From a virus, in the IMG/VR virus record IMGVR_UViG_3300038299_000353, positions 19,211 through 83,210 of that record: a stretch of DNA of 64,000 bases; one strand, written 5' to 3'. The notes beneath the pieces were generated by a model, which did not search any database, was not told the origin of the DNA, and saw nothing but the letters and a program-made list of their open reading frames with translations. The translations under genes were made by a program, and so were the position numbers. Positions 2,971-60,997 of this stretch are shown here, piece by piece; within the stretch, counting starts at the first letter, position 1, and the number at the start of each line of letters is the position of its first letter.

Positions 2971-2977
2971 TGTAATA
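2971..2977 (+). promoter_or_regulatory. Late-promoter-like box (TGTAATA) before portal gene
   Basis: TGTAATA begins 15 bp before the portal ATG at 2986. It is one of nine or more such boxes at near-constant distance from plus-strand start codons. The promoter role is inferred from recurrence and spacing. Confidence 0.5.
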
Positions 2978-2985
2978 TCTACCAA

Positions 2986-4995
2986 ATGGCAAAAAAGAAG
3001 TACAACTCAAATTCTCTATATCATAAAGATAGAAAAGCATACTATGCTCAGAAAGAAGCGGAAGCTTCTACTCAACAGCCAGAATTAACTTATAACGACG
3101 TCTTCTCTAGCAGAGAAAATATCGAAAAGAGCATTGGGATGGTAGGAGGCAACAGCAGGGGCGGCTCTCTGGGAAGAACTTTCGATAGTGCTTTGGGCGT
3201 TGATAGTGAGTTAGCGGCAAGATTTCCAAACCTAATAGGTAGAGGGACTATTTATCGCAGACACTCAGATGGGTATATTGGCATTCAAGAAGTTGTATAC
3301 TTGTGCCAAAAGGCTTGGGAAGAATTTCAGCTGTTTAGAAATACTATAGAAACTATGGTAGAGTTTTCCGTTTCAGAAATTCAAATCAGCGATAAAAATA
3401 GCTCTGCAAAAGCATTTTGCAAAGGATGGTTAGAAGCCGTCAATATGCAAGGATTCTCTGAGCAATTCTATAGAGAGCTTTACAGGTCTTGTAATCTTTT
3501 TATTTATAAAATAGGTGGAAAGGTAGATAAGAAAGATATTACCAGTTTAAGAGATGTTAAAAGCGGCAGTGTCAATATACCAGTAAAGTATACAGTTCTT
3601 AACCCAGCTCAAGTAGCCCTTGAAGGTGGAGTAACATATGACTCTGCAGTATACAAGATCCTTAGCCCTTACGAAATACAGAGACTTAAAAATCCAAAGA
3701 CTCCAACTGAGAAGGCTATTTTCAACAACTTAGACAAAGACATACAAGTTCAAATACGAAATTATAGTGAAAACTATGGCAGCTCTCAAGAAACTTTGAG
3801 AGTAGCTCTAGAAGATGTTGATTCTATCTTCTACCAAAAACAGGATTACGAATACTTTGCTGTTCCTCTATTCTACGGGGTACTGGATGATATCGAACTA
3901 AAAATGGAAATGAAGAATGCTGATAGGCAGATTATTAGCTCTTTGGACAGTATGCTTCTTCTTCTTACTATGGGAGGGGCTAAGGGCAGAGACGGAACTG
4001 AACTTCCTCCAAATCCTGAGCATATGGCTTATATGAAAACTCTATTTGAGAACAAGAAAGCTCAACGAGTACTAGTGGCCGATTACACTACAAAAGCAGA
4101 ATATGTAATCCCAGATATTGATAAGATCATCGGGAAAGCTAAGTATGAGCAAGTCAACGAAGATATTAGAGAAGGCTTGCAAACTGTATTTGGAGGAAAC
4201 GAAACATTCTCTAATTCGGTTACTAAGGTAAAAATATTTTGCGAAAGACTTCAGAAAGGTCAAAACATATTTAAAAGATGGCTTGAAGACGAGCTTAGTA
4301 ACGTCTGCAAGAAGATGGGGTTTAATGCTAAGCCAACTGTAAAACTTTCTTCCGTAAGTCTAGAAGATGATGCTCAGATGTTTAGAGTTTATACTAGAAT
4401 GGCAGAGCTTGGATTCCTAACTCCAGAAGAGCTGTTCGAAGCAACTAAAAATGGAATGCTTCCGAACTCTCATGAAAGCATTCTTTCTCAGAGAAAGTTT
4501 AAAAAGCAAAAAGAGGAAGATATATATTTCCCTCAAATTTTCAACAATAGTCAATACAATCCTTTGGATGCTGACACGAAAAATACTAACGACAAGGAGC
4601 CTTCTGCTAATCAAGTTGGAAGGCCCCCAAGTAAAGATTCTGGCTTCAATGAAGTTAGACAAAGAAGAGTCGGCAGTATTGAACAGCTTTCAATCAAGAG
4701 TCTTAAAGATGTGTTGTCAGAGTACGACAGCCTTAAGGAAGATACTAATACCTCCTTTGCTAAAAAATACGGGATAGAAGAAGTTAGTGAGAAGCAAAAG
4801 GAAATTACAAAGTCTATAGCTTACAACATATCCAAGAATTATGAAATAAAGGACTGGAAGAAAGCTATTGAGGAAGTTATAGAAAAGAAAATCATATTGA
4901 GTAATACGGATGTTGAAAACAAGATTGAGAGCATTTGTAATGATTTTGAGCTTAGTGACGACTTTATGGGTATGTTGATTTATCACTCCAAATAA
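2986..4995 (+). CDS. Portal protein
   Basis: A 669-residue protein directly after TerL, with the length and order expected of a portal: the dodecameric ring at one capsid vertex through which DNA passes. Features that fit are an N-terminal region ending in YIGIQEV, mixed alpha/beta segments, a glycine-rich patch near 330, and a long helical segment around 400-450 (ERLQKGQNIFKRWLEDEL) resembling portal stem and wing helices. The last 130 residues are charged, helical and less typical; they follow a low-complexity linker with GRPPSKDSG. No single motif is decisive, so the call rests on gene order, size and general pattern. The next gene encodes the protease and scaffold. Confidence 0.8.
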   Translation: MAKKKYNSNSLYHKDRKAYYAQKEAEASTQQPELTYNDVFSSRENIEKSIGMVGGNSRGGSLGRTFDSALGVDSELAARFPNLIGRGTIYRRHSDGYIGIQEVVYLCQKAWEEFQLFRNTIETMVEFSVSEIQISDKNSSAKAFCKGWLEAVNMQGFSEQFYRELYRSCNLFIYKIGGKVDKKDITSLRDVKSGSVNIPVKYTVLNPAQVALEGGVTYDSAVYKILSPYEIQRLKNPKTPTEKAIFNNLDKDIQVQIRNYSENYGSSQETLRVALEDVDSIFYQKQDYEYFAVPLFYGVLDDIELKMEMKNADRQIISSLDSMLLLLTMGGAKGRDGTELPPNPEHMAYMKTLFENKKAQRVLVADYTTKAEYVIPDIDKIIGKAKYEQVNEDIREGLQTVFGGNETFSNSVTKVKIFCERLQKGQNIFKRWLEDELSNVCKKMGFNAKPTVKLSSVSLEDDAQMFRVYTRMAELGFLTPEELFEATKNGMLPNSHESILSQRKFKKQKEEDIYFPQIFNNSQYNPLDADTKNTNDKEPSANQVGRPPSKDSGFNEVRQRRVGSIEQLSIKSLKDVLSEYDSLKEDTNTSFAKKYGIEEVSEKQKEITKSIAYNISKNYEIKDWKKAIEEVIEKKIILSNTDVENKIESICNDFELSDDFMGMLIYHSK

Positions 4996-5017
4996 CTTCT
5001 CAAGATTGGCGTTACCA

Positions 5018-5026
5018 TGTATATAA
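5018..5026 (+). promoter_or_regulatory. Late-promoter-like box before protease-scaffold gene
   Basis: TGTATATAA begins 13 bp before the ATG at 5031. It is a variant of the TGTAATA box found before other head and tail genes. Confidence 0.45.
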
Positions 5027-5030
5027 CTAT

Positions 5031-6539
5031 ATGCGCTCTTCGTTAAGTGATAAATTCAAATATAAAAGTACTTTCCTTTCTAAGGCAAATGTAGTATCTC
5101 TAACTACCTCTAATCTATCAAAGGCTTCTTTACAAAATTTAAAGGATACTTTGAATGTATCAGAAGGTGACTTTGAGAAAAATCCAGACCTATTATTTCT
5201 TTCTGCGGACTTGTATGTTTCAGACAATGCAAATAAAAATGGAGATCTGGTCGATAGAGAAGGAGCGCTTGAGCTTGCTAAGCAAGTACCTAATAAATAT
5301 TTAAATTTAGAACACGAACAAGATATGATCGTAGGATCTCTGATTAGCCCTTTCTACAGAAAGTATTCTGAAGATAGGGAGATGATAGAGGAGGGTGGCC
5401 TAGAAGACTATGACGGTCCAGTCGTAGTTGGAGGCACTGGATATATCTGGAAAAGTGTTAACCCAGACCTAGCTGAATTTTTAGTTCAAGCTTCCGAAGA
5501 GGATAGCGAAGAATATGGAATGGCTTCTATGTCTTGGGAAGTATATTTCAATGACTTTGAAATCTTAAAGGGATCAAAGTATGTTGCCGAGGGTGACATA
5601 GTTTCTGATAAGAGAGAAATTGAAAAAATGAAACCCTTCTTAAGGTGCTATGGAGGAAATGGAGACTATGATGGTTCTCCTATCTATAGGCTGATAAAAG
5701 GAGAAAAATTATTTTTAGGTGCTGGAATAGTAAAGAACCCTGCGGCTGATGTCAAAGGTATAATTACTTCCGAGTCTAAAATTATTAAAAATAATAATAA
5801 AAAAAATTCACAAACAGTGAAAATAAATGTAAAACCAAATAAAGCAATGAAGATCTCAAATATTACAGATTATAAAAATGCACTAGCTTCTATTACCTCT
5901 GGTGATGAAGTTAATGTAACTACCCTTGCATCTTTGGAAGCGAATTTCGATTCCGTAGTTGATAAAGCTCAAGCTTCCGCTATCGCCGACGAAATTCGTG
6001 CGAAGAGTGAAGAGTTTGCAGCTTCTATCTCCGAAAAGGATGCACTTATCGTACAGGCCGAAGAAGCTCGTGCGACGTTGGAGACGAAAATAGCAGAACT
6101 TGAAGCAGCTAAGGCCGCTCAAGACTCCGAACTTTCTGAAATTAAAGAAAAAGTTGAAGCGCAAGAAAAACAAAGAGTATTCGACGAAAGAATGACTGCT
6201 CTAAGTTCTGAATTTAAGCTTGAAGGCGAAGTAGCGAAGGTTGTTGCTGAAGAAATCAAGGATATAGATGAAGAGCAGTATGACGCTTGGCTTAGCAGAT
6301 TTAAAATTTTAGCTGGAAGTCACTTGAAGGCAGAAGCTAGTGAAGAAGTCTCTCAAGATGAGTCCGATTCAGAAGAAACCGAAGAGTGTGTAGCAGAAGC
6401 TGCGGCGGAAGAAGAAGCAGAGGCGGTAATCACCGAAGCTTCTAATTCAGCAATAGAAGAAGTTACTAACTCTCAACATGAATACAAATCCCTTAAAGAT
6501 GAATTTGAAAACTTCGAATTCGAACTTGCGGGTAAATAA
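5031..6539 (+). CDS. Prohead protease fused to scaffold-like domain
   Basis: A 502-residue fusion. Residues 55-255 match the phage maturation protease pattern: NANKNGD near 67-72, LNLEHEQ with the likely catalytic His95, VGSLI near 101-105, and MASMSWEV with a candidate nucleophile Ser166 or Ser168. A Lys/Asn linker near 255-270 leads to residues 273-502, which are acidic, Ala/Glu-rich and strongly coiled-coil, like capsid scaffolds. The protease would assemble inside the procapsid and remove the scaffold as the shell matures. An in-frame ATG at 5847 opens the scaffold half and could give a separate scaffold protein, as lambda Nu3 is made from within gene C; no clear SD precedes it. Confidence 0.85.
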   Translation: MRSSLSDKFKYKSTFLSKANVVSLTTSNLSKASLQNLKDTLNVSEGDFEKNPDLLFLSADLYVSDNANKNGDLVDREGALELAKQVPNKYLNLEHEQDMIVGSLISPFYRKYSEDREMIEEGGLEDYDGPVVVGGTGYIWKSVNPDLAEFLVQASEEDSEEYGMASMSWEVYFNDFEILKGSKYVAEGDIVSDKREIEKMKPFLRCYGGNGDYDGSPIYRLIKGEKLFLGAGIVKNPAADVKGIITSESKIIKNNNKKNSQTVKINVKPNKAMKISNITDYKNALASITSGDEVNVTTLASLEANFDSVVDKAQASAIADEIRAKSEEFAASISEKDALIVQAEEARATLETKIAELEAAKAAQDSELSEIKEKVEAQEKQRVFDERMTALSSEFKLEGEVAKVVAEEIKDIDEEQYDAWLSRFKILAGSHLKAEASEEVSQDESDSEETEECVAEAAAEEEAEAVITEASNSAIEEVTNSQHEYKSLKDEFENFEFELAGK

Positions 6540-8332: not shown

Positions 8333-8361
8333 AATCCCGCCAGAAATGGCGGGATTTTTTT
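8333..8361 (+). terminator. Intrinsic terminator after major capsid gene
   Basis: Stem AATCCCGCC (8333-8341) pairs with GGCGGGATT (8348-8356) around a six-base loop, followed by a T run to 8361. It closes the capsid transcription unit and is followed by a late box at 8401. Confidence 0.9.
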
Positions 8362-8400
8362 GTGTCTAAGTTTAGAATTTTCCCAAAAGTACGCTACACC

Positions 8401-8410
8401 TGTATATAAT
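8401..8410 (+). promoter_or_regulatory. Late-promoter-like box after the capsid terminator
   Basis: TGTATATAAT begins 13 bp before the ATG at 8414 and lies just downstream of the capsid terminator, so a new start of transcription is needed here. Confidence 0.55.
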
Positions 8411-8413
8411 AAT

Positions 8414-8737
8414 ATGGAAAAAATTAATGGAAAAATTAATGGCAGCGATACTTTGGTAAGCGCTTTGGGTAATAAAAAGTCAGTAGCAGGTGTTTCTCAG
8501 TTTTTGGATTATAAAATTCTTATTAGTAAGATGCCTATGGAAAAACTATATAGGCATGGTTTAGAAGAATTTGGTATTAAGCCAAACAGATCCTTGAAAG
8601 GTAGAGAAACTTTTGAAAAAAAATGCTTGGCTGCATTCAGAAAATCTACTGGTCAATTGATGAATCAAGATTTATCAAAAAAGCTGACTAAGACCAAACA
8701 AAAGAAGCTAGATGAAGTTCTGAAGAAGGGGATTTAA
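8414..8737 (+). CDS. Small basic protein, function unknown
   Basis: A 107-residue protein rich in Lys and predicted helices. The frame is open far upstream into the capsid gene, but the start at 8414 is chosen because it lies after the capsid stop and terminator and 13 bp behind a late box. Residues 60-107 (RSLKGRETFEKK onward) are strongly basic and could bind nucleic acid. It is transcribed between the capsid and neck genes, so a virion or assembly role is plausible. No family is recognised. Confidence 0.7.
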   Translation: MEKINGKINGSDTLVSALGNKKSVAGVSQFLDYKILISKMPMEKLYRHGLEEFGIKPNRSLKGRETFEKKCLAAFRKSTGQLMNQDLSKKLTKTKQKKLDEVLKKGI

Positions 8738-8759
8738 TTTCTTTGTAGGGTTTTTTAAC

Positions 8760-8766
8760 TGTAATA
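8760..8766 (+). promoter_or_regulatory. Late-promoter-like box before neck genes
   Basis: TGTAATA begins 13 bp before the ATG at 8773, the first gene of the neck cluster. Confidence 0.5.
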
Positions 8767-8772
8767 ATAGTT

Positions 8773-9228
8773 ATGTCTACGTACCAATTAACAGGAGTTG
8801 CTTATGAGCTTCATCAAGAGTTAAATTTCCCTAGCGAACCAAGTCAAAATAGAATAAACCTTTGGCTAGAATATAACGTCGGGAAATTAAACAATAAGAT
8901 TTCTACTAACTACAGTTTAAATTCTGGAGAATATGTACCTCTATTACATCAAGACGAAAAAGACATCTTAAAGTCTCTATACTATGTTGAGTATTATACA
9001 AATCTATCTAGGGATATCTTAATAAAAAGCTCTAGTGGCGGAAACATTATCTCTATAAAGGATGACGAAAGTTCAGTTACTTTTGAAAGGAGTAGGGACT
9101 CATCTGTGGAGATATATAAAATTGCTAGAGATATGGATAACAGGTCTACGGATTTAGTAAATCTATATAAACATAATAGGTCTGGACCAAGAGACCCTCA
9201 AGAGAATTTAACTGGCTTCAAGTATTAA
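8773..9228 (+). CDS. Putative head-tail connector (adaptor) protein
   Basis: A 151-residue, mostly helical protein, the first of four coupled genes between capsid and tail tube. Segments such as NRINLWLEYNVGKLNNKI and EKDILKSLYYVEYYTN give paired amphipathic helices like the small adaptor proteins (HK97 gp6 type) that sit under the portal. The gene ends with TAATG shared with the next start. The assignment is by position, size and helix pattern only. Confidence 0.5.
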   Translation: MSTYQLTGVAYELHQELNFPSEPSQNRINLWLEYNVGKLNNKISTNYSLNSGEYVPLLHQDEKDILKSLYYVEYYTNLSRDILIKSSSGGNIISIKDDESSVTFERSRDSSVEIYKIARDMDNRSTDLVNLYKHNRSGPRDPQENLTGFKY

Positions 9229-11070: not shown

Positions 11071-11091
11071 TTCACAGTCTCGCAAATAAAA

Positions 11092-11098
11092 TGTATTA
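11092..11098 (+). promoter_or_regulatory. Weak late-box match before tail tube gene
   Basis: TGTATTA lies 36 bp before the ATG at 11128, further away than the other boxes (13-17 bp). It may be a distant variant or chance. Confidence 0.2.
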
Positions 11099-11127
11099 AC
11101 TATTATAACCCAACCTTTTTTAAAACT

Positions 11128-12357
11128 ATGGCAAAAAGAATTCAAACAAGATATGAAAGTGCTGGCCTCTTTGTAGGCCCTTCGCCAGCAACTGGCAGAC
11201 ACTTTGCAGATGGTCTTTACGGTTACACCACTCTATTAAGTGGATCAAGCGGTGATAACCAAATCAGACCACTATTCAGAGTACAGTCGTTCTCCGACTC
11301 TTTCGACAACCCTCTTCAGAACGTTAATCAATTTGGACAAGCTACTACTCTTGCCAAATTAGCTACTTCTGCACCGACCCCAACCTTCGATTTCACGTAT
11401 TTCACTAATAATGGATTGAACGAAGCTATTCTGGGCTTTCCAGTGTCCCTTGATGCTAGCACTGTTGCTGGAAATACAACTGGCTTGAGAAATTGCCTGT
11501 CTGGATTCTTTGATTCTACAAATGATTCCAAGAACTATTTCGCGCAATTCGTCCCAGAAGGTAAGTCCGTTTATGGAGATACCTCTGCAGATGACCTAGA
11601 CTTCGTAGTTTGCCTTTCAAATGGCTTCATTACTAATTATGAAGTTAGCGCAAGTGTTGGCGGGTTCATGGAATCTACAGTTTCTGTTGAAGGTTCTAAT
11701 TACGTAGTTAATTCTAATAGTACTGGCAACATTTCTCCAGCAATTTTCCCAGAAAATGGAGACAAGGTTACTGGGTGGCAATATGATATTCCTGCAATCT
11801 CACAAGACTCCACTGGAGCTTTTGCTGGTGCAGGTTCTACAATGCCAGCGGTCATCAAACAAGGTGGAATTAAGCTTAACATCAGCACTCTTTCGGGTAA
11901 CATGGGTGTTAACATTACAGAATCGAATATCAATTCGTTTTCCGTTAGCGTTCCAGTTGCTCGTGACAACCTTGAAAGACTAGGAAGTCAATTCGTTTTT
12001 GCTCGCCCATTGCAAACACCAATTGATGGAACAGTAAGCTTCGATTTTAATGTCACTGATATGACGACAGGTTCTCTTGTTGATCTATTCAACGGCACAT
12101 CGAACACTGAGTTTGACTTTAGTATTGTAACTGCTGGAAGTACTGGTAATTCGGTAGATACAGATCAATTCGCTATTGTTGTTAGAGGTGCTACCTTCGA
12201 ATCGGAAAATACATCTCTTGATATCGGATCTGCAAGAAACGGTTCTGTAACATTCCAAGTCCCACTTGGTACTGTTGATGAAACTGGAAAAGGCATATTC
12301 TTCAGCGGAGCCGCTACAGAAGCAGATCGTAACGCGAGATACGCAGGTCGTTCATAA
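11128..12357 (+). CDS. Major tail (tube) protein
   Basis: A 409-residue protein rich in Ser, Gly, Thr and Asn with many predicted beta strands, placed just before the tape measure gene and closed by a strong terminator. The repeated pattern of beta hairpins (for example GTVSFDFNVTD and RNGSVTFQVPLGT) suits a tube subunit with extra Ig-like or surface domains. Codon use is more biased than in the flanking genes, which suggests an abundant product. It would form the stacked rings of the tail tube through which DNA moves. A sheath protein was considered, but there is no second tube gene next to it. Confidence 0.7.
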   Translation: MAKRIQTRYESAGLFVGPSPATGRHFADGLYGYTTLLSGSSGDNQIRPLFRVQSFSDSFDNPLQNVNQFGQATTLAKLATSAPTPTFDFTYFTNNGLNEAILGFPVSLDASTVAGNTTGLRNCLSGFFDSTNDSKNYFAQFVPEGKSVYGDTSADDLDFVVCLSNGFITNYEVSASVGGFMESTVSVEGSNYVVNSNSTGNISPAIFPENGDKVTGWQYDIPAISQDSTGAFAGAGSTMPAVIKQGGIKLNISTLSGNMGVNITESNINSFSVSVPVARDNLERLGSQFVFARPLQTPIDGTVSFDFNVTDMTTGSLVDLFNGTSNTEFDFSIVTAGSTGNSVDTDQFAIVVRGATFESENTSLDIGSARNGSVTFQVPLGTVDETGKGIFFSGAATEADRNARYAGRS

Positions 12358-12382
12358 ATTTTAAATATTCATTTAAAAAACA

Positions 12383-12418
12383 AAGCCCATTGATTTTTTT
12401 ATCAGTGGGCTTTTTTTT
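12383..12418 (+). terminator. Intrinsic terminator after tail tube gene
   Basis: AAGCCCA then TGAT (12383-12394) pairs with ATCA then TGGGCTT (12401-12412), with one T-G wobble, around a T6 loop and followed by a T run to 12418. A late box follows at once at 12421. Confidence 0.9.
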
Positions 12419-12420
12419 AG

Positions 12421-12427
12421 TGTAATA
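12421..12427 (+). promoter_or_regulatory. Late-promoter-like box before tape measure gene
   Basis: TGTAATA begins 17 bp before the ATG at 12438 and directly follows the tube-gene terminator, so transcription must restart here. Confidence 0.55.
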
Positions 12428-12437
12428 GTATATAGGC

Positions 12438-15400
12438 ATGGCTAGATCTGATTTAGAAATATTAGCGGAAGTAAAACTCTCAAACACAAGAGAGTTTAAT
12501 GCTCAGTTGCGTGGTCTTGAAAAACGTAAAGTTATAATTGACACAAAGCGAAGTGAGCAGGCTTTAGGCAGAATTACAGGCAAGGCAAATGAGTTTACTA
12601 AATCACTTGAAGCTTCTAATGCCCGTGTCATCGCTTTCGGCGCTTCTGTGGCCGTCATTGAAGGGGTAAGAAGAGCCTTCCTAGAATTGGCTACCACCGT
12701 AGTACAGGTGGAAAGTAGCTTGAATGCTATTAACTCCATCTTCGGAAGAAGTAGCGATACGATATCGAAGTTTGGTGACGAGCTGTTTAAGGTTGCTAAG
12801 AATACTGGTCAGGGATTTCAGCAAGTAGCTGAAGCTGCACAGGAATTTGCCAGACAGGGCTTGAGCGTAGAGCAAACTCTAAAGAGAACAAATGACGCTC
12901 TGATATTAACTCGACTAACAACTTTAAACACAGAGAAAGCAATTTCTGGTTTAACTGCGGTTGTTAACGGTTTTGCATCCTCTGCTATAACGACTACTGA
13001 CGTCATAAATAAGTTGAGAGCAGTTGAAACTGCTTTTGCGGTTTCTTCTACAGATCTAATTGATGCGGTTTCTAGATCGGCATCCGTTGCTCAGGATGCT
13101 GGCATATCGTTTGAAGAATTGCTGGGTTTCATTACTGCGATAAAACAAAGAACTGGTTTGGGTGGCGCTACTATTGGTCAAGGTCTGAAGACTGCTTTAA
13201 CTAGACTTAATTTACCTACTAGAATCGCACAGTTGAAAGAACTTGGGGTCGCTGTTGATGAATCTGCCGCAACCTTTGATAACCTAGTAACAGCATCTGT
13301 AGCCATTGATAAAGCTCAAAAGGACGGGAACAGAAGTCTTGCCACTCAAATATCTACAGTTGTTGCTGGCCAGTTCCAGGTTTCAAAATTGTCGGCCCTA
13401 TTTAGAGATTTAGCATCCCAACAAAGTATTGCTGGAGGAGCGACAGACGCTGCGACCAAGGCAACTAATGAAGCTATTCTAGCCAACTTAGCTTACAATC
13501 AAACTATTGAGGGTGTTAGTAAGCAAATCTCTGCCAATATAAGTCAAATTTTTGCAGGCCTTGGCGAGGCTGGGCTTCAAGACTTCTTCAAGTCTATTGT
13601 AACGGATATAAATGTATTGCTAGAAGCTCTTCAAGGCAAAGATATTGGAGGTGGGTCCTTTTTGGCAAACCTTACCAAGGACGTGCTTTTACTAGCTAAT
13701 GATCTTAAGCTTTTAGCGCCACTTGCTGAAGGGTTTGTAAAAGTCTTGACTGGTCCTGCATTTGTAACTGGCTTGGCAATTATTGCCAATACTTTAAAAA
13801 ATGTATTCACTCAGGGTGGCGCAAGTTTACTTCAGCTCAGTGGTATAAACAAAGTTTCAGAAAAACGAATAGCAAATCAGAGAGTTATTCAAAGCTTGTT
13901 AGCTCAAGCTACCTCTTCCGAGTTAAAACAGCTAGAATTAGCAACTTCACAGGCACAAAAAGAACAAATTATATTAGGCTTGCTGACTAAACAACTTGCT
14001 GCGCAAAAAGCCTTAGAATCTAGTTCGATTAGAACTGCGCAAAGCTTGTCGAGGCAGGGTGTATCTCTTGGTGGATCTGTTTTTACTGGAGATGTAAGTA
14101 GGAAAGGAAGAGGAACAAAGGGTTTTGCTGGAGGAACTTTAGGGGGAGCAATAGAAAATGAAAAAAGGGCGATCAGCAATGGCGTTGGTGGAGCTAGTTC
14201 AAACGCGCAAGTAAAAGTAGTAAATTCATTCAATTATGGAAAGGGCAAGATTGGGCCAGCCGTATTGAATAGTGATGAGATTTTAATACCTAATAAGAGT
14301 GGCGACATTGTATTGAATAGAGATATGGCAGGATCTTCTGCTATTAGCTCTATGGGTGGAAACTTTGCCAAAGGCAAGATCCCTATGATCAAGGGATTGA
14401 CCTACAAGGCCTCTCAGGATGGCTTTAGCAAGCTTCTGATGGGTAACACCAAATTTCAGTCTGTAAGCTACTACAGTAAGAATTCTGACTCAGTTAGACA
14501 GCTTACAGGGGTTCAGCATTCATCTATGGTTGGTCAGTCATCTAAGGCTGGAAAGCCGCCTCCTAAGGGGTATTCTAGCTGGAAGCAATACCAAAGGGAG
14601 AATCAGATGGTTACTCTTAGAGGTATGCAGGGTGGCGAACAAGTAACCAAAAATGTAAAACTCTCTAATATAAGAAAGGTTAGAGCTGGGGGAGCTACCT
14701 ATATACCTAATTTTGCAGAAGGCAGGGTCAATATTGGAGATTCCGAAATAAAAAGGATGATGAAGAGGCTGAGATCTGGTCAATCTCTAACAAACAGAGA
14801 TTTGAGAAGGATCGAATCTGGTATTGCATCGGGTCAATCATTTAAAATTCCACCCCTTTTAAGGGATGCTGCGGCTAAGCAGGCTTCGTTTGCAAGTCAG
14901 AAAGCTGCTAGAGGTTCTGGTAGAGCTACACCAAAAACTCCACCAAGCGGTGCTGGTGAAAGGACTAGAATATTTCCGACACGAACATCTTCCGTTAGAG
15001 ATAGTCAAGGGAGATTTGTTGGAACAGGTGGAGCATCAGATGTAAGCTCTTCAGGTTCCAGAGCTTTTAGCACTAATGATTTTCAGCCGCCAGCAGTAAT
15101 ACAGCCAAGTTTAGCCGAGCAGGCAAAAAATGCTCCACCTAAAGCAACTGACTTTAGTAAATCTTTGGAAGAGAGGCAGTACAAGCAATTTAAAAACGAT
15201 TTTACTGCTGGCAAAATACCTAGCGGAGGTGGCGATGACACGTTCAAGAAATTTAAAACAAGGCTGCAGTTTGATCTTATAGAAGCCGAATTAAAAAAAG
15301 AGTCTAAAGCTCAGGGAAGACCTGTATCATTTGCTGAGCTTGGTAGGTCAAAAGAAGGTAGGAAGCTTAGGCAAAATATTGTAAAAGCTGGACTAGTTAA

Positions 15401-21357: not shown

Positions 21358-21382
21358 CTATTTCACATACTAGTTAAATGTC

Positions 21383-21390
21383 TGTATATA
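21383..21390 (+). promoter_or_regulatory. Late-promoter-like box before 21400 gene
   Basis: TGTATATA begins 17 bp before the ATG at 21400. The stretch just upstream (TTTCACATA, then TTAAATGT) also occurs before the portal box near 2949-2973. Confidence 0.45.
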
Positions 21391-21399
21391 GATATAGGC

Positions 21400-21624
21400 A
21401 TGGAAGAAAAGGATTTTTATTATTTTGAGTTTTTGGGCGAAAGGTGTATCAAGCATTTGTTCAAGGACTTCCTTTATCAATTAGAGGATATACAGGAAAA
21501 GTACTCTATAGAGGACGACGATTTCGAAAAAATAAGAAATCGAGTTTTAGATAAGGGTAATGATACTATTCGTTTCTTTAGGGATCAGGGAGAGAATTAT
21601 ACGAAATTAAACTCAGGAGAATAA
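21400..21624 (+). CDS. Small acidic protein of the tail module
   Basis: A 74-residue, acidic, helical protein with aromatic residues at the start (DFYYFEFLGERC). It begins a three-gene run with tight spacing: the next ATG follows its stop directly. An SD-like CAGGAGA at its 3' end serves the next gene. No family is recognised. The pairing with the following genes suggests a tail assembly role. Confidence 0.6.
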   Translation: MEEKDFYYFEFLGERCIKHLFKDFLYQLEDIQEKYSIEDDDFEKIRNRVLDKGNDTIRFFRDQGENYTKLNSGE

Positions 21625-23272: not shown

Positions 23273-23279
23273 TGTAATA
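23273..23279 (+). promoter_or_regulatory. Late-promoter-like box before LamG-fibre gene
   Basis: TGTAATA begins 14 bp before the ATG at 23287. Confidence 0.5.
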
Positions 23280-23286
23280 TAAACAT

Positions 23287-25383
23287 ATGGGCTTAAGGGG
23301 CATAAACTACATTTATTCTGGAATATTAAAACTAGATACAGGCAACATGCCAGTATACTATGACTTTAATAATTTTAGTGATGAATTTTATACTCAGCTA
23401 GTCACACAGTCAGGAAGCCCCTTAATTACGCAAGATTCTTCTTTTATAGTATTAGAGGACGTCGATGTTTCAGGATACAATTCTGTAAACTTTGCTTCTT
23501 TTTTTATTGGGCAAGATATAAATATTTTAAGCTCAAACTCTGCTTCTATAATAGGAAACGTTGATAGCTTTACTGGAAATGGAAATTCTGGAAATTTTAA
23601 TTACGGATATTTAGAAATAAATAATCAACAAGATTTATTCTCTAGAGACTTTACCGTACTCTTGTCTCAGGATAAGCGTTATACTGGAGATGGAGTTTTA
23701 TTTTCTTGTTTTGACGACAACGTTATAAAAAGTGGATATTCTTTTGGGATAAATTCTGCAAATAAAATGTATTTTGAATATTTTGATAATCAAAATCAAA
23801 GATACGATATACAAACTAGCTTGTTGCAGCTATCAGATAAAAACTTAATAGGACTAAGAAAGTTCGATGACTCAATTTACTTTTTAGCTTATAATAATAG
23901 TACGAAATCTTTTGAGAGTGAAATCAAAAGTGTTATATCTGACGAGATTCTTCCTTGTAACAAATTTTTAATTGGTAGTGGGCAAAATCAAAAAAGCTAT
24001 TCTGGCTTTATGGACGATTTTGTATACTTAAATCAAAACATTTCAACTGTAGATGCAAACATACTTGCTTCTGGCTTTTGGTCGGACACTAAGAGTGGGA
24101 TTCCTTTCTTGATAGAGTCTGGAATTACTGGAGGAGTTAGTGGCTATGAATATAATTTAACTGGAGTAACTGGCATACTTTCTACAAGCAGTATTTTGAC
24201 TGGCACTGGATATACTACTGGTTACTCTGACATTTATCAATATGTTATTGAAACGGGAGTTATAGCATCTGGAGAAGAAAAGATAGAGTTCTTACAAAAC
24301 TTACCGCAGTATTGCGTAGGAAACGAAGAAGTTCCAATATATAGAAAGGTTGTTACATTAGATTCAACTGGCGTAATTGGGTTGATTCGTCAATTCTCTG
24401 GAACCGATGAAGTTATCAATGGAACGGATATATATCAAAACGTTAACATCACTGGGTTCTTGTCTAGTGGGTTAAGAGCTACTACTATTTTCAATACTGG
24501 AAACAATGACATTTCTGGACTTAAGAATGTTATGAGTGGCGACAGAAGAAGGCTTTCTGAGTATGGAATGAGCGAAATTACTTATCTTGGCGAGTATTTT
24601 GATCAATCGTTTGGTCAAGAACAGACTGGCATAAATAGCTTCAACTCTTTAGCTTTATATGAAAAAGAAGACGATTATTCTAATGAATTTAGAAATTTTA
24701 ATTTCTTAAATAAGACATCTCTTGCAAGCTTAGATGGGACTGGATTTTCAATTAATCAAGAGTATGATGGGTCCGAATTTAGAGTCTCTTCTAATGGTCT
24801 TTTGAGATTTTCAAACTCTACCATAACATCAGCTGGTCTAGAAAATTTTTATAAATCTGGTTCAATAGAACTAGGTAAGGTAATATTAAGCGGTAATAAT
24901 ACTGGCTCAAAAGTATTTTACGATGCTAATGACTTTGCAGTAAAAAGTGTCTTTAGTGGTAGCAATAATATAAGCGTACACGATAACTTGTTTTTCAAAA
25001 AAGGGTATAAGCTAGCGTCTGGATTGGATTATACTGGAGACGCAATTAACAACTCGTTCACCGCAATAAAAGCATCTGACTCAACTAAAGAAATTTTAGC
25101 TATTGGCTTTAGAGTTCAGAGTGGTCAACACCAGTCTAATGTTATACCATCTTCGGGGAAATTCTTTAGAGACTCCTCTACCAATTATTTTGGTAGGCTG
25201 AGACTGCGCCGTGATCTATATTTAGAGACTAGTGAATCTTCAGACCTAACATCTAATAAAAAGCAGCTTATTCCAAGCGGAGTAAAGTCTCTATTTGTTA
25301 ATAGAAATTATCAGAGCGAGCTATCAACTGGATCAGTATATAGATCTTATCTAACTGGAGCCAGTGGATTTTTCGATCTTTAG
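23287..25383 (+). CDS. Tail fibre or tip protein with LamG-like lectin domain
   Basis: A 698-residue protein. Residues about 30-265 look like a concanavalin/LamG sandwich: FTVLLSQDKRYTGDGVLFSC, then SGYSFGINSANKMYFEYFD, and the closing SYSGFMDDFVYLNQ, the common end of such domains. This fold binds sugars, so surface glycan recognition is plausible. The middle has a run of short TG and SG turns (SGITGGVSGYEYNLTGVTG), a style shared with the 1750-residue protein downstream, suggesting a fibrous beta repeat. It lies in the tip and fibre region after the tape measure. Receptor binding is inferred. Confidence 0.6.
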   Translation: MGLRGINYIYSGILKLDTGNMPVYYDFNNFSDEFYTQLVTQSGSPLITQDSSFIVLEDVDVSGYNSVNFASFFIGQDINILSSNSASIIGNVDSFTGNGNSGNFNYGYLEINNQQDLFSRDFTVLLSQDKRYTGDGVLFSCFDDNVIKSGYSFGINSANKMYFEYFDNQNQRYDIQTSLLQLSDKNLIGLRKFDDSIYFLAYNNSTKSFESEIKSVISDEILPCNKFLIGSGQNQKSYSGFMDDFVYLNQNISTVDANILASGFWSDTKSGIPFLIESGITGGVSGYEYNLTGVTGILSTSSILTGTGYTTGYSDIYQYVIETGVIASGEEKIEFLQNLPQYCVGNEEVPIYRKVVTLDSTGVIGLIRQFSGTDEVINGTDIYQNVNITGFLSSGLRATTIFNTGNNDISGLKNVMSGDRRRLSEYGMSEITYLGEYFDQSFGQEQTGINSFNSLALYEKEDDYSNEFRNFNFLNKTSLASLDGTGFSINQEYDGSEFRVSSNGLLRFSNSTITSAGLENFYKSGSIELGKVILSGNNTGSKVFYDANDFAVKSVFSGSNNISVHDNLFFKKGYKLASGLDYTGDAINNSFTAIKASDSTKEILAIGFRVQSGQHQSNVIPSSGKFFRDSSTNYFGRLRLRRDLYLETSESSDLTSNKKQLIPSGVKSLFVNRNYQSELSTGSVYRSYLTGASGFFDL

Positions 25384-25415: not shown

Positions 25416-25422
25416 TGTAATA
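25416..25422 (+). promoter_or_regulatory. Late-promoter-like box before hub gene
   Basis: TGTAATA begins 17 bp before the ATG at 25433. Confidence 0.5.
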
Positions 25423-25432
25423 AGATAAAGGA

Positions 25433-37225: not shown

Positions 37226-37230
37226 ATTTA

Positions 37231-37259: not shown

Positions 37260-38414
37260 GTTTTTTTTGATGATTCTAAAAAATTGTACTTCTTCCATGA
37301 AATCTTCATCCATCTCTTTAAATTTAACACAATTATCTTCTAGAGATTCAATGCTTTCATCGGCAATCATAGATTGTTTAGATGTAAAGACCTTGCCGTT
37401 ACTTAAAATGAACTTATTCGAAATGTAAAAGCAATCAGAATTAAGACCATCGATGCTAACTGAATCAATCTTCTTTAGGTGGACCTGGCCTATGTCTAAA
37501 AACATGAATCTTATTTTGTCTATATTTTCTACATCATCCGACCATAACTTACAATCTATACCAATATTCAAAAGACTTTTGACGTAATCTTTATTAGCAT
37601 CAAGCGATACTTTGAAGTTGATATTTGAGACATTGTCTCTACAAATTTTGTACAACCTTATTTCGCTTTCTTTAGAAGTGATGATAGAACATTTGACCTT
37701 TTTCAATAAACTAAATAAAACATTATCATTGCATTCATAGTCGCATCTAATTGTTGGCTCAACGTTATTAAGGATATTTGCGTCTACGTCTAAATTCGGG
37801 ACAATTTCTATTATTTGTTGCGGATAAAATTTACCAGTAAAGATAGTTTCTTCGTCGCTACTCTTTTTAATTCTAAGAGCTTCGTAGACTTTATTTACAA
37901 TGTCCTCTACCTTTATCATGTTAATCGTCTTATCAGGCTCATTAGAAGCGAAGGAGGGGTTGTTCCCATTTCTATGCGAAGAGATCAAATGCGTATTTTC
38001 AGATTTAAAATAAGGTCCATGATTCTCTGGAGTAGTTGGGCCATATACGGAGACTACGGGAGTTTCGTGAAGTCCAGACAAATGTACAGCAAAGGAATCA
38101 TTACCCAAATGAAGGCTGCTGTTTCTTAGTATGTAATTGGTTTGATGCAAGCTAGTTTTGCCAATAAGGGATTTCACGAAAGGGATATTTAACCCCTCTG
38201 TTCCTATGTGCAATATTTCATATCCAGCATCATGCAGATCCTTTTTAATGTATTTTAATACATCAATCCAGTAATCATAATTCTTACTACTCATCCCAGA
38301 TGAGGTCTGTATAGTAATATACTTTTTAGGTGTTGGATAGAAGAATTCTAGCGGCTTGCATTTTCTGATTTTAAAGCCAGAATTTAAAGAGTAGGTTTTT
38401 AACAATGAGGGCAT
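37248..38414 (-). CDS. GT9-type heptosyltransferase, C-terminal half (split gene)
   Basis: A 388-residue protein whose residues 30-180 match the C-terminal lobe of glycosyltransferase family 9: TIQTSSGMSSKNYDYW near the start, then SLHLGNDSFAVHLSGL and PVVSVYGPTTPENHGPYF, the nucleotide-sugar binding end. The rest is unassigned beta and helix. The N-terminal GT9 lobe is missing here but is found at the end of the upstream gene; the two overlap by TAATG at 38414-38416, so the two chains are probably made together and join. GT9 enzymes move heptose from ADP-heptose to LPS core. The acceptor here is unknown. Confidence 0.7.
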   Translation of the reverse strand: MPSLLKTYSLNSGFKIRKCKPLEFFYPTPKKYITIQTSSGMSSKNYDYWIDVLKYIKKDLHDAGYEILHIGTEGLNIPFVKSLIGKTSLHQTNYILRNSSLHLGNDSFAVHLSGLHETPVVSVYGPTTPENHGPYFKSENTHLISSHRNGNNPSFASNEPDKTINMIKVEDIVNKVYEALRIKKSSDEETIFTGKFYPQQIIEIVPNLDVDANILNNVEPTIRCDYECNDNVLFSLLKKVKCSIITSKESEIRLYKICRDNVSNINFKVSLDANKDYVKSLLNIGIDCKLWSDDVENIDKIRFMFLDIGQVHLKKIDSVSIDGLNSDCFYISNKFILSNGKVFTSKQSMIADESIESLEDNCVKFKEMDEDFMEEVQFFRIIKKNLTK

Positions 38415-40339: not shown

Positions 40340-40373
40340 ATTATAGATTTAAACTTTAATTTAACAATAAAAA

Positions 40374-40399
40374 AGCCAGCCATCTTTCGATAGCTGGCT
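40374..40399. terminator. Terminator after SSB-like gene
   Basis: AGCCAGC with ATC pairs with GAT and GCTGGCT around a TTTC loop, with one internal mismatch. A/T runs flank both sides, so it likely ends minus-strand transcription after the SSB-like gene and may act both ways. Confidence 0.75.
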
Positions 40400-40428
40400 A
40401 GTTTTTATATTAACCCACCTTGACCTTA

Positions 40429-41073
40429 TTAAAACGGCAGATCGTCGTCGGAACTAAGCGGATCGCTTGATTCAGCGAATTGATCTGGAGCTTCCTTCTC
40501 TTCCTCTTGAAAAGCTGGTTTGCTATTCCCTTCGAACTGCTCAAAGAATGAAGAGGCTACGTCCCATAGGAAAGTCTCTGGTTCGGACCAATCCCACTCT
40601 TCCTTGCCACGAACAACCTTTTTGTTCGGAGCGGGAAGGCCATTTGGATTATCTTTCGTATATGCAAACTTCACAAAACCTCCATTTTGTTTGATTAGCA
40701 TTACAGGACTCTTATCTTGCTTATCTGGAAAGCATACTAATTCTATTTCCTGAGAGACTTCAATATTTGGAATTCGTTTTACGAAAGCATCTCGGAGTTT
40801 GGAATTCCAAGGAAGCTTGACGATATACGATTCTTTCCCATCTTCAAGATTAATAGAGATTTGATCACCATAGTCTCCGCTTTCGACAGAACCTCCAGAG
40901 ATCTTACCAGTAACGCTACCGTACTGAAGCTCATATACATCAGAGCCTTCGTTAGGTCCATTTTTAAGGGTGCGAGATACTGCTCCTTCTGTGCCTTCTG
41001 GGACACGTTGTGAAATCTTCCCACCGACTACTGTCAAGTAGGTAGATGATTTAGTTTGTTTGTTTAGTGCCAT
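40429..41073 (-). CDS. Single-stranded DNA-binding protein-like
   Basis: A 214-residue protein with a beta-rich first half (about 1-125) that could form an OB fold, a charged linker, and a last stretch ending in DDDLPF, the acidic tip that SSBs use to recruit partners. The tip is the strongest evidence; the N-terminal fold is not one I recognise from bacterial SSB, so it may be a T4 gp32-like or novel OB protein. It is near primase, helicase and recombinase genes. It has its own promoter upstream (41135-41162) and terminator downstream, so it is regulated separately and is probably abundant. Confidence 0.65.
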   Translation of the reverse strand: MALNKQTKSSTYLTVVGGKISQRVPEGTEGAVSRTLKNGPNEGSDVYELQYGSVTGKISGGSVESGDYGDQISINLEDGKESYIVKLPWNSKLRDAFVKRIPNIEVSQEIELVCFPDKQDKSPVMLIKQNGGFVKFAYTKDNPNGLPAPNKKVVRGKEEWDWSEPETFLWDVASSFFEQFEGNSKPAFQEEEKEAPDQFAESSDPLSSDDDLPF

Positions 41074-41134
41074 AATTTTGTATTATTTTTTTGTATTATT
41101 ATTTGTTATTTATTGTTTGTTGTTTAGATGCCCT

Positions 41135-41162
41135 ATGTTAGGACAAAGTTATATAATGTCAA
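41135..41162 (-). promoter_or_regulatory. Sigma70-like promoter for SSB-like gene
   Basis: On the minus strand, TTGACA (41162-41157) and TAACAT (41140-41135) are 16 bp apart. A leader of about 55 AT-rich bases precedes the ATG at 41073. Confidence 0.6.
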
Positions 41163-41563
41163 GTATTTTTTTGTCTTATATTTGTGCTAGAAAATCCTGG
41201 AATTCGTTTTATGATTCTTACTTCTCCTCCCCAGTATTTACACTCTTTGTGACCAACTACTTTTTCTAGCGGATAGTCATCGCCAACAAATATTATTTTG
41301 GGTTTAATTTTATTAATCAGGTCTATGGGGCTGTCTTCTATGAACGAATGAATTTCATTTACTCCAAAATTTCTAATCTTCTTTTTTCTTTCATCAATGC
41401 AAGAGAGCAAAAGTCTTTTGTTTTTTATAATATATCTATCTGAGTTAAGAGCAACATGGAGAATATCGCATTGCTCCATAGCTGTCTTTAAAATATATTG
41501 ATGACCTTCATGGAATCCATCAAAGCATCCAGCTATAAAACCTGCGATGGGGTTATGAGTCAT
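41159..41563 (-). CDS. HldE-like nucleotidyltransferase (adenylyltransferase half)
   Basis: A 134-residue protein with the HxGH nucleotidyltransferase motif within GCFDGFHEGHQYIL near the N-terminus. It aligns in type with the C-terminal half of HldE, which makes ADP-heptose from heptose 1-phosphate and ATP. The ATG at 41563 is preferred to an upstream TTG. It overlaps the kinase gene by 11 bp, and the two together equal a whole HldE. GCT or FAD-synthase type enzymes share the HxGH fold, so substrate identity rests on the partner gene. It would act in the host cytoplasm during infection. Confidence 0.7.
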   Translation of the reverse strand: MTHNPIAGFIAGCFDGFHEGHQYILKTAMEQCDILHVALNSDRYIIKNKRLLLSCIDERKKKIRNFGVNEIHSFIEDSPIDLINKIKPKIIFVGDDYPLEKVVGHKECKYWGGEVRIIKRIPGFSSTNIRQKNT

Positions 41564-42353
41564 TAAGCTCTGTTTCTGAAACAGAAACAACTCCTCTCTT
41601 TGATACAGCTATTGATGCGACTTGATTTGCGAATGAAAGGCTTTTATTAATATTGGCACAGCGCAAGTATTCTGCTACAAAGCCAGCTAAATAGCTGTCA
41701 CCAGCTCCAGACACGCAGTTAGCTTCGACTTCTTTTGTTTTAATGGTAGAGTCAGTATTGAAGTGATAAACCCCCTTCTCGCCCAACGTGACGAATAAGT
41801 TAGTTTTCTTGAGCAGGGTACTAACTTGTTTCCCAAGGTCATAAGGAAGAAAATTTTCATCAAATTCTTTTTTATTAATTTTTATAAAATCTACATACTT
41901 GATCCAGTTTCCAGCTTTCTTTTTTGTATCTATAATAATTTTGCATGAGAATTTTTTACGAATATCATGTATAAGGCTTTCAGTAATAAATCCCTTGCAG
42001 TAGTCTGAAATTACAACCATATCTATAGGTTCACTGCATTTGCTCGAAGATATTGATTGAATCAAGCTCTCAAGACTAAGGGGCTTGCAGGGGCTTTCTT
42101 TGTCTAATCTTGCAATATGTTGCCCAGAACTTTTATGCACGTATCTGGTTTTAATGATTTCGTTGTCTTGATGGACGAATAAAATTTTATCACACCCCAA
42201 TGACTTTAAGTTGCTTACTACGTTAGCTGCTCCTCCATCATTCTTTTCTCTGAAAATTTCTTTTATTACTGGGCAGCAAGCTTCTGGAGAAAGCCTGTCG
42301 GAAGAACAGTAAATAAATTCGTCCTTTATAAATTCTCCAATAACTAAAATCAT
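41553..42353 (-). CDS. HldE-like PfkB kinase (heptose 7-phosphate kinase half)
   Basis: A 266-residue PfkB-family kinase. RLSPEACCP at 20-28 followed by NDGGAANVVSNLKSLG resembles the HldE kinase start (R-SPEAPVP and PGGAANVA), and GAGDS at 216-220 holds the catalytic Asp219. HldE makes heptose bisphosphate as the first activating step before adenylyl transfer; here the two halves are two overlapping genes. It is 266 residues against about 310 for the kinase half of bacterial HldE, so loops may be trimmed. The ATG overlaps the upstream stop (ATGA). GmhA, GmhB and HldD were not seen in this window, so the host may supply them. Confidence 0.75.
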   Translation of the reverse strand: MILVIGEFIKDEFIYCSSDRLSPEACCPVIKEIFREKNDGGAANVVSNLKSLGCDKILFVHQDNEIIKTRYVHKSSGQHIARLDKESPCKPLSLESLIQSISSSKCSEPIDMVVISDYCKGFITESLIHDIRKKFSCKIIIDTKKKAGNWIKYVDFIKINKKEFDENFLPYDLGKQVSTLLKKTNLFVTLGEKGVYHFNTDSTIKTKEVEANCVSGAGDSYLAGFVAEYLRCANINKSLSFANQVASIAVSKRGVVSVSETELNDS

Positions 42354-59070: not shown

Positions 59071-59098
59071 TTGACATTTGTAAGTTTTAATGTACCTT
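59071..59098 (+). promoter_or_regulatory. Sigma70-like promoter for phage sigma gene
   Basis: TTGACA (59071-59076) and TACCTT (59093-59098) are 16 bp apart. The -35 box is seven bases from the -35 box of the opposite promoter. Transcription would begin next to the ATG at 59106. Confidence 0.55.
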
Positions 59099-59105
59099 AC
59101 GAAGA

Positions 59106-59630
59106 ATGATTGATGATCTATCTGATTTAGAGCTTACTGAAAATATAAAAAAGGGTATTGACGTAAACAACTGTTTGAAAAAATTACAAGAGAGGCACAG
59201 TGGAATCTTTTATAAAAAGGCCAATGCTTACTCTGGAATAATGGAGATTGAAGATTTAAAGGAAAATCCTTTAAGTTTTTTTTATGATGCTGCAAAAGAG
59301 TTTGATGTTAGTAGGAGCAAATTCTCAACCTGGATAGGCAATAAAGCATTTTGGACTTGTCAGAGCCTTTGCAGCTCAAAGAAATATTTCGTAGAAATAG
59401 AGGACAACCACTTAGTACACATGCCCAATTACGGCAAAAGGGAGTTATTGAGTTATGTTGAAAATGATATTCAAAATGAAGAAAATAGAGAAATTTTAGA
59501 AAAAAGGTTGTCAGGAATGACATTTTCAGAGATAGCTAAAGACATGAATGACAAATATTCTGGCGAATGGATTCGTCAAAAGTACAATAGAATTTTAGAT
59601 AGATATAAACAGATTTTAAATAATGAGTAA
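59106..59630 (+). CDS. Phage RNA polymerase sigma factor
   Basis: A 174-residue sigma-like protein. Residues 1-85 resemble region 2 (ELTENIKKG, FYDAAKEFDVSRSKFSTWIG), which binds core polymerase and reads the -10 box, and residues 130-174 resemble region 4 (SGMTFSEIAKDM and GEWIRQKYNRILDRYK). The size is similar to T4 gp55, the late sigma factor. It would redirect host polymerase to late genes. It has a host-type promoter, so it is made early, and it overlaps the next gene by eight bases. The TGTAATA boxes are its likely targets, by inference. Confidence 0.75.
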   Translation: MIDDLSDLELTENIKKGIDVNNCLKKLQERHSGIFYKKANAYSGIMEIEDLKENPLSFFYDAAKEFDVSRSKFSTWIGNKAFWTCQSLCSSKKYFVEIEDNHLVHMPNYGKRELLSYVENDIQNEENREILEKRLSGMTFSEIAKDMNDKYSGEWIRQKYNRILDRYKQILNNE

Positions 59631-60735
59631 TTTTAGTTTACAGGTCCCCATTAATGGCACTAGCTTAGGTCAAGTATCTACCAATCTTCTATATGAGCTA
59701 TTCTCTAGAAAGCTGGAGCCTAATATTTTTCCAATAGCTGGAATAGATCTATCTTCTTATGAAGATATCATTCCTGAACAGTTCATGGCTTGGTTGCAAT
59801 TGTGTACTCAAAAATCATTGAAAGACTTCAAGAGAACTGAACCGTCCTTGAGAATTTGGCACATCAATGGCTCTCAAGATTCAATCAGTAAAAACCCCTT
59901 CCTTTATTTTTTCCATGAGCTAGATCAACTTACTGCGACTGAAAAAAATATTTTAAACTCCTATGACAAAGTTGCATCACCTTGCTCTTTCACCGAAGAG
60001 GTCTGCAAAGAATATGGAGTTGATAACCACAAAACAATTAACTTAGGTTACAACTCCCTTGCTTTTAAAGAGACTGAAGTTAAAAAGTATGAAAATAATG
60101 AAATTGTAATTGCTTTGGCTGGTAAATTTGAAAAAAGAAAGCATACTGCTAGTATCATTAATTTGTTAAAAAATAAATTTGGGAATGATAAGAGATTTAA
60201 GATACATCTTCATATATTCAATCCCTTTTTCCATCAAGATCCGAATAAATCTATGGAGATAAACAAAATGAAAGTAGTCGAGGCTTGTGATGGAGATGTT
60301 CCCCATAACATGATCTTTATGCCCTACTTTAGAAAGTTAACGGAGTTGAATCAAGCATATAATATTGCAGACATTGTTGTTGATGGAAGCGGTGGAGAAT
60401 CTTGGTCTCTACCTTCTTTCCATATGGCTGGACTCGGCAAGCAATGTGTAGTTAATTTTAATTCTGGAATTAAAGAGTGGGCAACTGATAGTAATTCTAT
60501 TAAAGTGGCTCCTAATGGTAAAATTTCAGCAATCGATAATCTTTTCTTTCAACAGGGGTCTCCATTTAATTGCGGAAATATTTATGATTTAGATATAGAA
60601 AATATGTCTACTTCATTAGATTCTGCCGTTAAAAATGTCCTTGATGGGAAAATTAATGAAGGCGGCAAAAAGCTGCCATCTCAATTCACAGATGCAAAAT
60701 TCTGTGACGAAATACTAGAACTAATAAAAATATAA
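59623..60735 (+). CDS. GT-B glycosyltransferase (GT4-like)
   Basis: A 370-residue enzyme. SPCSFTEEVCKEYG near 119-132 is the typical linker of GT4 proteins, VIALAGKFEKRKH near 162-174 begins the second lobe, and DGSGGESWSLPSFHMAG near 254-270 holds the E-x7-E region with Glu259. It would move a sugar from a nucleotide donor. It is the only glycosyltransferase on the plus strand, overlapping the sigma gene at its start and the small gene at its end. Its acceptor is unknown; virion decoration is plausible because it is expressed with late genes. Confidence 0.75.
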   Translation: MSNFSLQVPINGTSLGQVSTNLLYELFSRKLEPNIFPIAGIDLSSYEDIIPEQFMAWLQLCTQKSLKDFKRTEPSLRIWHINGSQDSISKNPFLYFFHELDQLTATEKNILNSYDKVASPCSFTEEVCKEYGVDNHKTINLGYNSLAFKETEVKKYENNEIVIALAGKFEKRKHTASIINLLKNKFGNDKRFKIHLHIFNPFFHQDPNKSMEINKMKVVEACDGDVPHNMIFMPYFRKLTELNQAYNIADIVVDGSGGESWSLPSFHMAGLGKQCVVNFNSGIKEWATDSNSIKVAPNGKISAIDNLFFQQGSPFNCGNIYDLDIENMSTSLDSAVKNVLDGKINEGGKKLPSQFTDAKFCDEILELIKI

Positions 60736-60941
60736 TGAATACAAGTACTATTAAATCAAAAGTAACAAAGTCTCACGGTAAATTTATGAGAGTAAGTCTA
60801 CAAAATTCTAAAGTTTCCGAATGCTTCATGGGTAAAGTTAAATCTATTGGAGAAACGTTCGTAACCTTTGATCGCTTCTCTGGAAAGCGTGGAGAAATTA
60901 AAGTCCATCGAAACTCAATCAAGAGTCTTGCTGTAGTGTAA
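60735..60941 (+). CDS. Small beta-rich protein
   Basis: A 68-residue basic protein coupled to the upstream gene by TAATG and followed by a terminator. Its strands (FMRVSLQNSKVSECFMGKVKSI and TFVTFDRFSGKRGEIKV) look like an Sm or SH3-type small barrel, which can bind nucleic acid, but no family is recognised. Confidence 0.55.
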   Translation: MNTSTIKSKVTKSHGKFMRVSLQNSKVSECFMGKVKSIGETFVTFDRFSGKRGEIKVHRNSIKSLAVV

Positions 60942-60947
60942 TCGATG

Positions 60948-60976
60948 GCCTTCCTTCGGGAAGGCCTTTCTTTTTT
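60948..60976 (+). terminator. Strong intrinsic terminator
   Basis: GGCCTTC pairs with GAAGGCC around a CTTCG loop, followed by a T run with one C. It ends the sigma operon, and a late box follows. Confidence 0.92.
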
Positions 60977-60988
60977 GCAATATTATTG

Positions 60989-60997
60989 TGTAAAATA
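60989..60997 (+). promoter_or_regulatory. Late-promoter-like box after terminator
   Basis: TGTAAAATA begins 15 bp before the ATG at 61004. Confidence 0.45.

Follow-up and report, generated by a model that had tools for sequence, protein, structure and literature searches.

How does a tailed phage mark its late genes for transcription, and where do the resulting messages begin? The question is raised by a 64,000-nucleotide stretch of viral DNA (positions 19,211-83,210 of IMG/VR record IMGVR_UViG_3300038299_000353, record length 83,210 bases; hereafter the window), in which the heptamer TGTAATA, or else TGTATATA, recurs shortly before plus-strand start codons. The window carries the gene set of a tailed phage: terminase, tape measure, a sigma factor at 59106, and a minus-strand block of replication and sugar genes. 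Putative genes for the portal, protease and capsid were assigned from gene order and relatives rather than from family matches. We consider it likely that the boxes form the -10 part of a bipartite phage promoter that drives the packaging and structural (late) genes through the phage's own sigma factor and yields leaderless transcripts. A relative, G001 (also designated L025), served as the second genome for motif statistics.

Position and composition of the late promoter

All nine boxes that the initial annotation had placed 13-17 nucleotides (nt) before ATG codons were found there (Table 1). As a word, the box is not rare: TGTAATA occurs 17 times in the window against 12.2 expected, and TGTATATA occurs at the chance level. 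Because the bare heptamer is common in AT-rich DNA, its position before starts is what counts. Over the 83,210-bp record, a box lay 12-19 nt before 9 of 91 starts, compared with 0.21 on average and at most 3 over 1000 shuffles; the start at 8414 was missed by the open reading frame (ORF) selection and would add one more. In G001, 16 of 184 starts were preceded by a box, against 0.64 expected from shuffles. By class, the box was observed before 8 of 28 plus-strand starts in the packaging and structural block and before one of seven at the right end; it was found before 0 of 34 minus-strand starts and 0 of 22 starts in the left block. The proposal of a recurrent late-gene promoter, enriched over random positions and missing before early-type genes, is upheld by these counts.

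Terminators had also been reported before three of the box-preceded starts. Two were confirmed by a scan, at 8333-8356 (before 8414) and at 12382-12413 (before 12438); the third, before 61004, can be seen in the sequence itself as a hairpin, CCTTCGGGAAGG, followed by a T-rich stretch. Comparison of relatives identified ATG 61004 as the conserved start there, not the TTG at 60986 given in the ORF list.

When sites were aligned on the box, a second element was observed, TTC(T/A/C)C at -21 to -17. Among gene-proximal boxes, 6 of 10 here and 12 of 18 in G001 had TTC exactly at -21, as compared with 0 of 29 and 7 of 80 boxes elsewhere in the respective genomes (binomial P about 2e-8 and 3e-16). Several of the seven non-proximal G001 boxes with TTC precede more distant genes or starts missed by the ORF caller. 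The late promoter is bipartite (TTCnC-N16-TGTAATA), not a single box, and its fuller consensus is TTC(T/A/C)(C/T)-N16-TGTAATA/TGTATATA. The earlier remark that no -35 element lies upstream is correct for TTGACA and wrong for TTCnC, which at the sites counted above lies exactly 16 bp upstream of the box.

Both elements are conserved. In four promoters compared with close relatives, identity was 100% in the box and 95% in the -35 element, against 70% in the spacer and 71% in the flank. Relatives with about 50% protein identity (L025, L028, L031) retain the box, the spacing and the ATG of orthologous promoters, and the portal-gene promoter is kept at 90, 84, 52 and 30% protein identity, the last in L032 and L038. 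Among relatives at about 40% capsid identity, TGTAA/T boxes peak exactly 13 nt before ATG (13/60); a de novo motif search of this distant set ranked a T-rich run first and GTGTAA second. Over all G001 genes, de novo expectation maximization recovered the early TTGAC class, not the late box. Related genomes retain both box and leader at the gene at 11128; in the G001 clade (L025), genes matching those at 6564 and 11128 in the window have late boxes about 27-40 nt upstream.

A similar signal, TTCAC-N16-TGTAAAA, was observed inside ORF 5031-6539, 19 nt before the in-frame ATG 5847, and is kept down to 43% identity. It points to a nested scaffold gene that would have a promoter to itself and is predicted to encode the C-terminal 230 amino acids (aa), which are coiled-coil-like; a separate C-terminal product of this kind would resemble those of nested protease/scaffold genes in other phages. 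Coding constraint could be a partial cause of the conservation of the signal at 5807-5834, and the internal site is the weaker one.

Two promoter classes with one geometry

Early-type genes have a promoter class of their own, TTGACw-N16-cATAAT. TTGAC was found 34-36 nt before 9 starts in this genome (null 0.6) and 33-38 nt before 24 starts in G001 (null 1.3), and the early-type -10 hexamer and the late box are about equally far from the ATG. Genes with both classes of promoter numbered 0 and 1 in the two genomes. The classes differ in sequence and share their geometry, so both would converge on a +1 at the AUG. The claim that the boxes are placed such that transcription should begin on the ATG or a few bases from it is supported by this geometry, and we infer from the two classes that late mRNA 5' ends would coincide with the start codon or lie no more than about 5 nt from it. 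No Shine-Dalgarno-like site was found before box-preceded genes.

Leaderlessness would not be special to the late genes, because the TTGAC-type promoters are placed alike. The initial annotation had called the combination of a new box and leaderless late mRNAs unusual. Leaderless late mRNAs are already known in phiYS40 (PMC3594737).

Table 1. Promoters and sigma factor gene in the window; distances in brackets run from the start of the box to the ATG.
Feature	Position	Strand	Elements or basis
Putative portal gene late promoter	2950-2986	+	TTCAC 2950-2954, N16, TGTAATA 2971-2977, ATG 2986 (15 nt)
Putative protease/scaffold gene late promoter	4997-5031	+	TTCTC 4997-5001, N16, TGTATATA 5018-5025, ATG 5031 (13 nt)
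Candidate internal late promoter, ORF 5031-6539	5807-5847	+	TTCAC 5807-5811, N16, TGTAAAA 5828-5834, in-frame ATG 5847
Late promoter after capsid-gene terminator	8380-8414	+	TTCCC 8380-8384, N16, TGTATATA 8401-8408, ATG 8414 (13 nt)
Late promoter	8739-8773	+	TTCTT 8739-8743, N16, TGTAATA 8760-8766, ATG 8773 (13 nt)
Candidate leadered late promoter	11071-11128	+	TTCAC 11071-11075, N16, TGTATTA 11092-11098, ATG 11128 (36 nt)
Tape-measure gene late promoter	12421-12438	+	TGTAATA 12421-12427, ATG 12438 (17 nt); -35 weak, but TTCAC in L025
Late promoter	21362-21400	+	TTCAC 21362-21366, N16, TGTATATA 21383-21390, ATG 21400 (17 nt)
Late promoter	23273-23287	+	TGTAATA 23273-23279, ATG 23287 (14 nt); TTC absent from the standard -35 position
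Late promoter	25416-25433	+	TGTAATA 25416-25422, ATG 25433 (17 nt); -35 weak (TTAAA)
Late promoter	60968-61004	+	TTCTT 60968-60972, N16, TGTAAAATA 60989-60997, ATG 61004 (15 nt)
Phage sigma factor of 174 aa with regions 2 and 4 in an ECF-like layout; proposed late-promoter reader	59106-59630	+	profile, fold model
Sigma gene early-type promoter	59071-59106	+	TTGACA 35 nt before ATG 59106
Early-type promoter example	37226-37259	-	TTGACA 34 nt before ATG at 37225
Further early-type promoters	before 45889, 49386, and 59027 or 59063	-	TTGAC-type

The sigma factor and its proposed role at the late promoter

Searched alone, the protein encoded at 59106 gave weak region-4 matches and passed no Pfam cut-off. 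Homologues are present in G001 (49% identity) and in 9 of 13 distant records, the four misses being records under 57 kb. A profile built from the family alignment matched many RpoD/SigA chains in region 4, and SigA and FliA in region 2. AlphaFold performed poorly with four sequences (predicted local distance difference test, 55); with the eleven that were needed, the model showed two helical domains, the N-terminal one confident and the C-terminal one joined to it by a disordered linker. The N-terminal domain of the model fits the complex of sigmaE region 2 with -10 DNA (4lup; template modelling score 0.75, 3.0 A, 94 columns), and the two-domain sigmas AlgU and sigmaE were among the top Foldseek matches. 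Sigma factors of the extracytoplasmic function (ECF, group 4) type, such as AlgU and E. coli sigmaE, contain regions 2 and 4 only. By profile and predicted fold, the 59106 protein is a member of the sigma-70-type family with regions 2 and 4 and without regions 1.1 and 3, and so ECF-like. It shares with ECF sigmas the two-region layout and the region-2 fit to 4lup; promoter sequence differs and sequence identity is low. A bipartite promoter of fixed spacing, as expected for an ECF-like sigma, was found in TTCnC-N16-TGTAATA. The 59106 sigma probably reads the late promoters, and the TTGACA 35 nt before its own ATG is consistent with an early-to-late cascade.

The proposed order of events is as follows: early genes, including the sigma gene, would be read by host RNA polymerase from TTGACw-N16-cATAAT, and the phage would produce its small two-domain, ECF-like sigma (regions 2 and 4). 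This sigma would displace that of the host, with region 4 reading TTCnC and region 2 reading TGTAATA. From a -10 element starting 13-17 nt before the ATG, transcription would begin on the A of the AUG or no more than about 4 nt from it, and the first gene of each late transcript would thus be translated leaderless. Downstream genes would depend on coupling or on occasional Shine-Dalgarno sites, and the few late promoters located 25-36 nt upstream would give short leaders.

Several observations weigh against this scheme. Four of the 10 sites here have no TTC at the standard place, and relatives at about 40% capsid identity, in which a second, leadered group of boxes lies at 25-30 nt, show no evident TTC element. 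At late sites 15-17 nt from the ATG, leaders of 2-4 nt are to be expected, and the leaders of the G001-clade counterparts of 6564 and 11128 are short, A/T-rich and without Shine-Dalgarno sites, not leaderless starts. In a whole-genome scan, a weight matrix trained on G001 could not tell sites from Markov noise, and genome-wide promoter counts are therefore not claimed. No Foldseek match to the sigma model reached E 0.001, and the link between sigma and late promoter is one of co-occurrence. The reading of this promoter by this sigma, the transcript starts, leaderless translation and temporal classes are all deduced from the DNA. A search for the host via contigs of metagenome-assembled genomes pointed to Rhodospirillales, Flavobacteriaceae and Verrucomicrobiales bins, mutually inconsistent, and counts of leaderless-type TTGAC promoters in these bins were uninformative.

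Of the other explanations, the one that survives best, though we think it unlikely, has the host sigma reading the boxes as an extended -10 (TGt-AATAAT), perhaps with a phage protein blocking -35 recognition and the phage sigma otherwise employed; transcripts would still be leaderless. TGTAATAAT does resemble TGnTATAAT, and the middle and late promoters of the Thermus phage P23-45 are of the extended -10 class and read by the host sigma (PMC7403470). The TG-containing -10 region is common to P23-45 and the window, but the window adds a phage sigma and a -35 element, which is not of the TTGAC type and is held at fixed spacing. Moreover, the -10 hexamer (TGTAAT) has G at position 2 throughout, a sigma gene bearing region 4 co-occurs with the boxes, and early promoters in these genomes pair a TTGAC -35 with another -10, with the near-absence of class overlap given above.

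It is considerably less probable that the promoters are real and the true starts lie further upstream, or the transcripts are processed, such that leaders are normal and the distance from box to ATG is a by-product of compact intergenic regions. The leadered late promoters of some relatives would allow this. It is opposed by the distance of exactly 13 nt in most G001 sites, which peaks again in distant relatives, by the three boxes that follow terminators, by a second promoter class with the same geometry, and by the lack of Shine-Dalgarno-like sites before any box-preceded start.

The initial annotation had likened the system to phage T4, in which late promoters (TATAAATA) work with gp55, gp33 and gp45, and in which gp55 lacks sigma region 4. 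Late transcription of that type, with a gp55-type sigma, a single -10 box and sliding-clamp activation, is very improbable here. The likeness extends to a phage sigma of a size similar to gp55 and one AT-rich -10 box near the start of late genes; the differences are the -35 element, the sigma region 4 and the box itself (TGTAATA/TGTATATA). Alignment of the 59106 sigma with gp55 was not meaningful (hhalign E 0.046, probability 1%, non-corresponding regions; hidden Markov model score 2.9 bits), and none of 7 records, possibly fragments, gave a gp45-type clamp (PF02916) over the cut-off. A weak clamp match in G001 was a glycosyltransferase-like ORF. The single-box model is rejected on the fixed-spacing TTCnC-N16 and sigma region 4; the placing of a phage sigma factor at 59106 is supported.

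Chance gathering of functionless TGTAATA-like words before ATGs in AT-rich DNA agrees with the near-chance count of the bare box and is scarcely credible beside the positional enrichment, fixed -35 spacing, conservation footprint and class restriction.

For the proposed bipartite promoter read by a phage sigma, the closest precedents are in other phages. phiEco32 and 7-11 encode a phage sigma (gp36 in phiEco32) and use a single 9-bp element, tAATGTAtA (PMC4331800). As in phiEco32, the sigma here would redirect host RNA polymerase to phage-specific late promoters, and the TGTATA core of its element recurs in the TGTATATA sites; most sites here are TGTAATA. The two differ in that the phiEco32 consensus is a single element, whereas a TTCnC -35 was found here, and in that phiEco32 combines its own sigma and TAATGTATA box with Shine-Dalgarno leaders; its genes 26 and 58 have leaders with AGGAG-type Shine-Dalgarno-like sites. 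No similarity between gp36 and the 59106 sigma was detectable. Most middle and late mRNAs of the Thermus phage phiYS40, which has a thermophilic host, are leaderless, a property that the paper links to changed levels of IF2 and IF3; the passage in question describes no dedicated sigma and promoter pair of this kind (PMC3594737), and in the window, unlike phiYS40, the early class is likewise positioned for leaderless starts. Phage transcripts are often leaderless according to the AR9 paper (PMC5312081). Precedents exist for each component; what appears new, within the open-access literature, is their combination and the spread of that combination through an uncultured family.

Neighbouring genes, relatives and significance

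A 42-nt imperfect inverted repeat (71%) was observed at 62471-62571, before a leucine-rich-repeat gene at 62570. Relatives such as L041 have an ordinary TGTAATA box and ATG at the counterpart of 62570; the window holds an extra segment with a second copy of the box in opposite orientation. Local duplication of the promoter in inverted orientation may account for the repeat. Directly after the 62570 orthologue, L041 has another gene whose N-terminus is similar (MANKKISDLTEITSAD); these tandem LRR_5 (BspA-type) duplicates are possibly variable tail or adhesion proteins. Among the sugar genes (37248-42353), a PfkB-family kinase (41553-42353, minus strand) adjoins a cytidylyltransferase-like protein (41159-41563, minus strand), the two together looking like a split HldE; at 37248-38414 (minus strand) lies the gene of a family 9 (heptosyltransferase) protein. 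The phage may carry a sugar-nucleotide pathway. A search of 7 records yielded no gene for ribosomal protein S21.

The major capsid protein had zero matches among 50,697 deposited phage records (GenBank phages), and the terminase had only distant matches there, all <28% identity. Capsid relatives are encoded in 417 IMG/VR stretches, at identities from 98% down to about 35%; many of these are near-duplicates, and independent lineages are far fewer than 417. The phage family is large, abundant, uncultured and aquatic.

We put at about even the broader proposition that this family is built on leaderless translation in both temporal classes, with early promoters for the host sigma and a family-specific ECF-like phage sigma (TTCnC-N16-TGTAATA) both putting +1 on the AUG of nearly every transcript-proximal gene, many virion genes included, in a non-thermophilic host. 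The analysis provides a testable pair of promoter and sigma for a large phage family whose capsid is unmatched among deposited phages. For annotation, a -10/-35 pair at fixed distance flags both true start codons and temporal class, and the sigma and its promoter could serve as a compact orthogonal pair for leaderless expression. The family would also offer a natural system in which to learn what share of a lytic programme leaderless mRNAs can support outside thermophiles.

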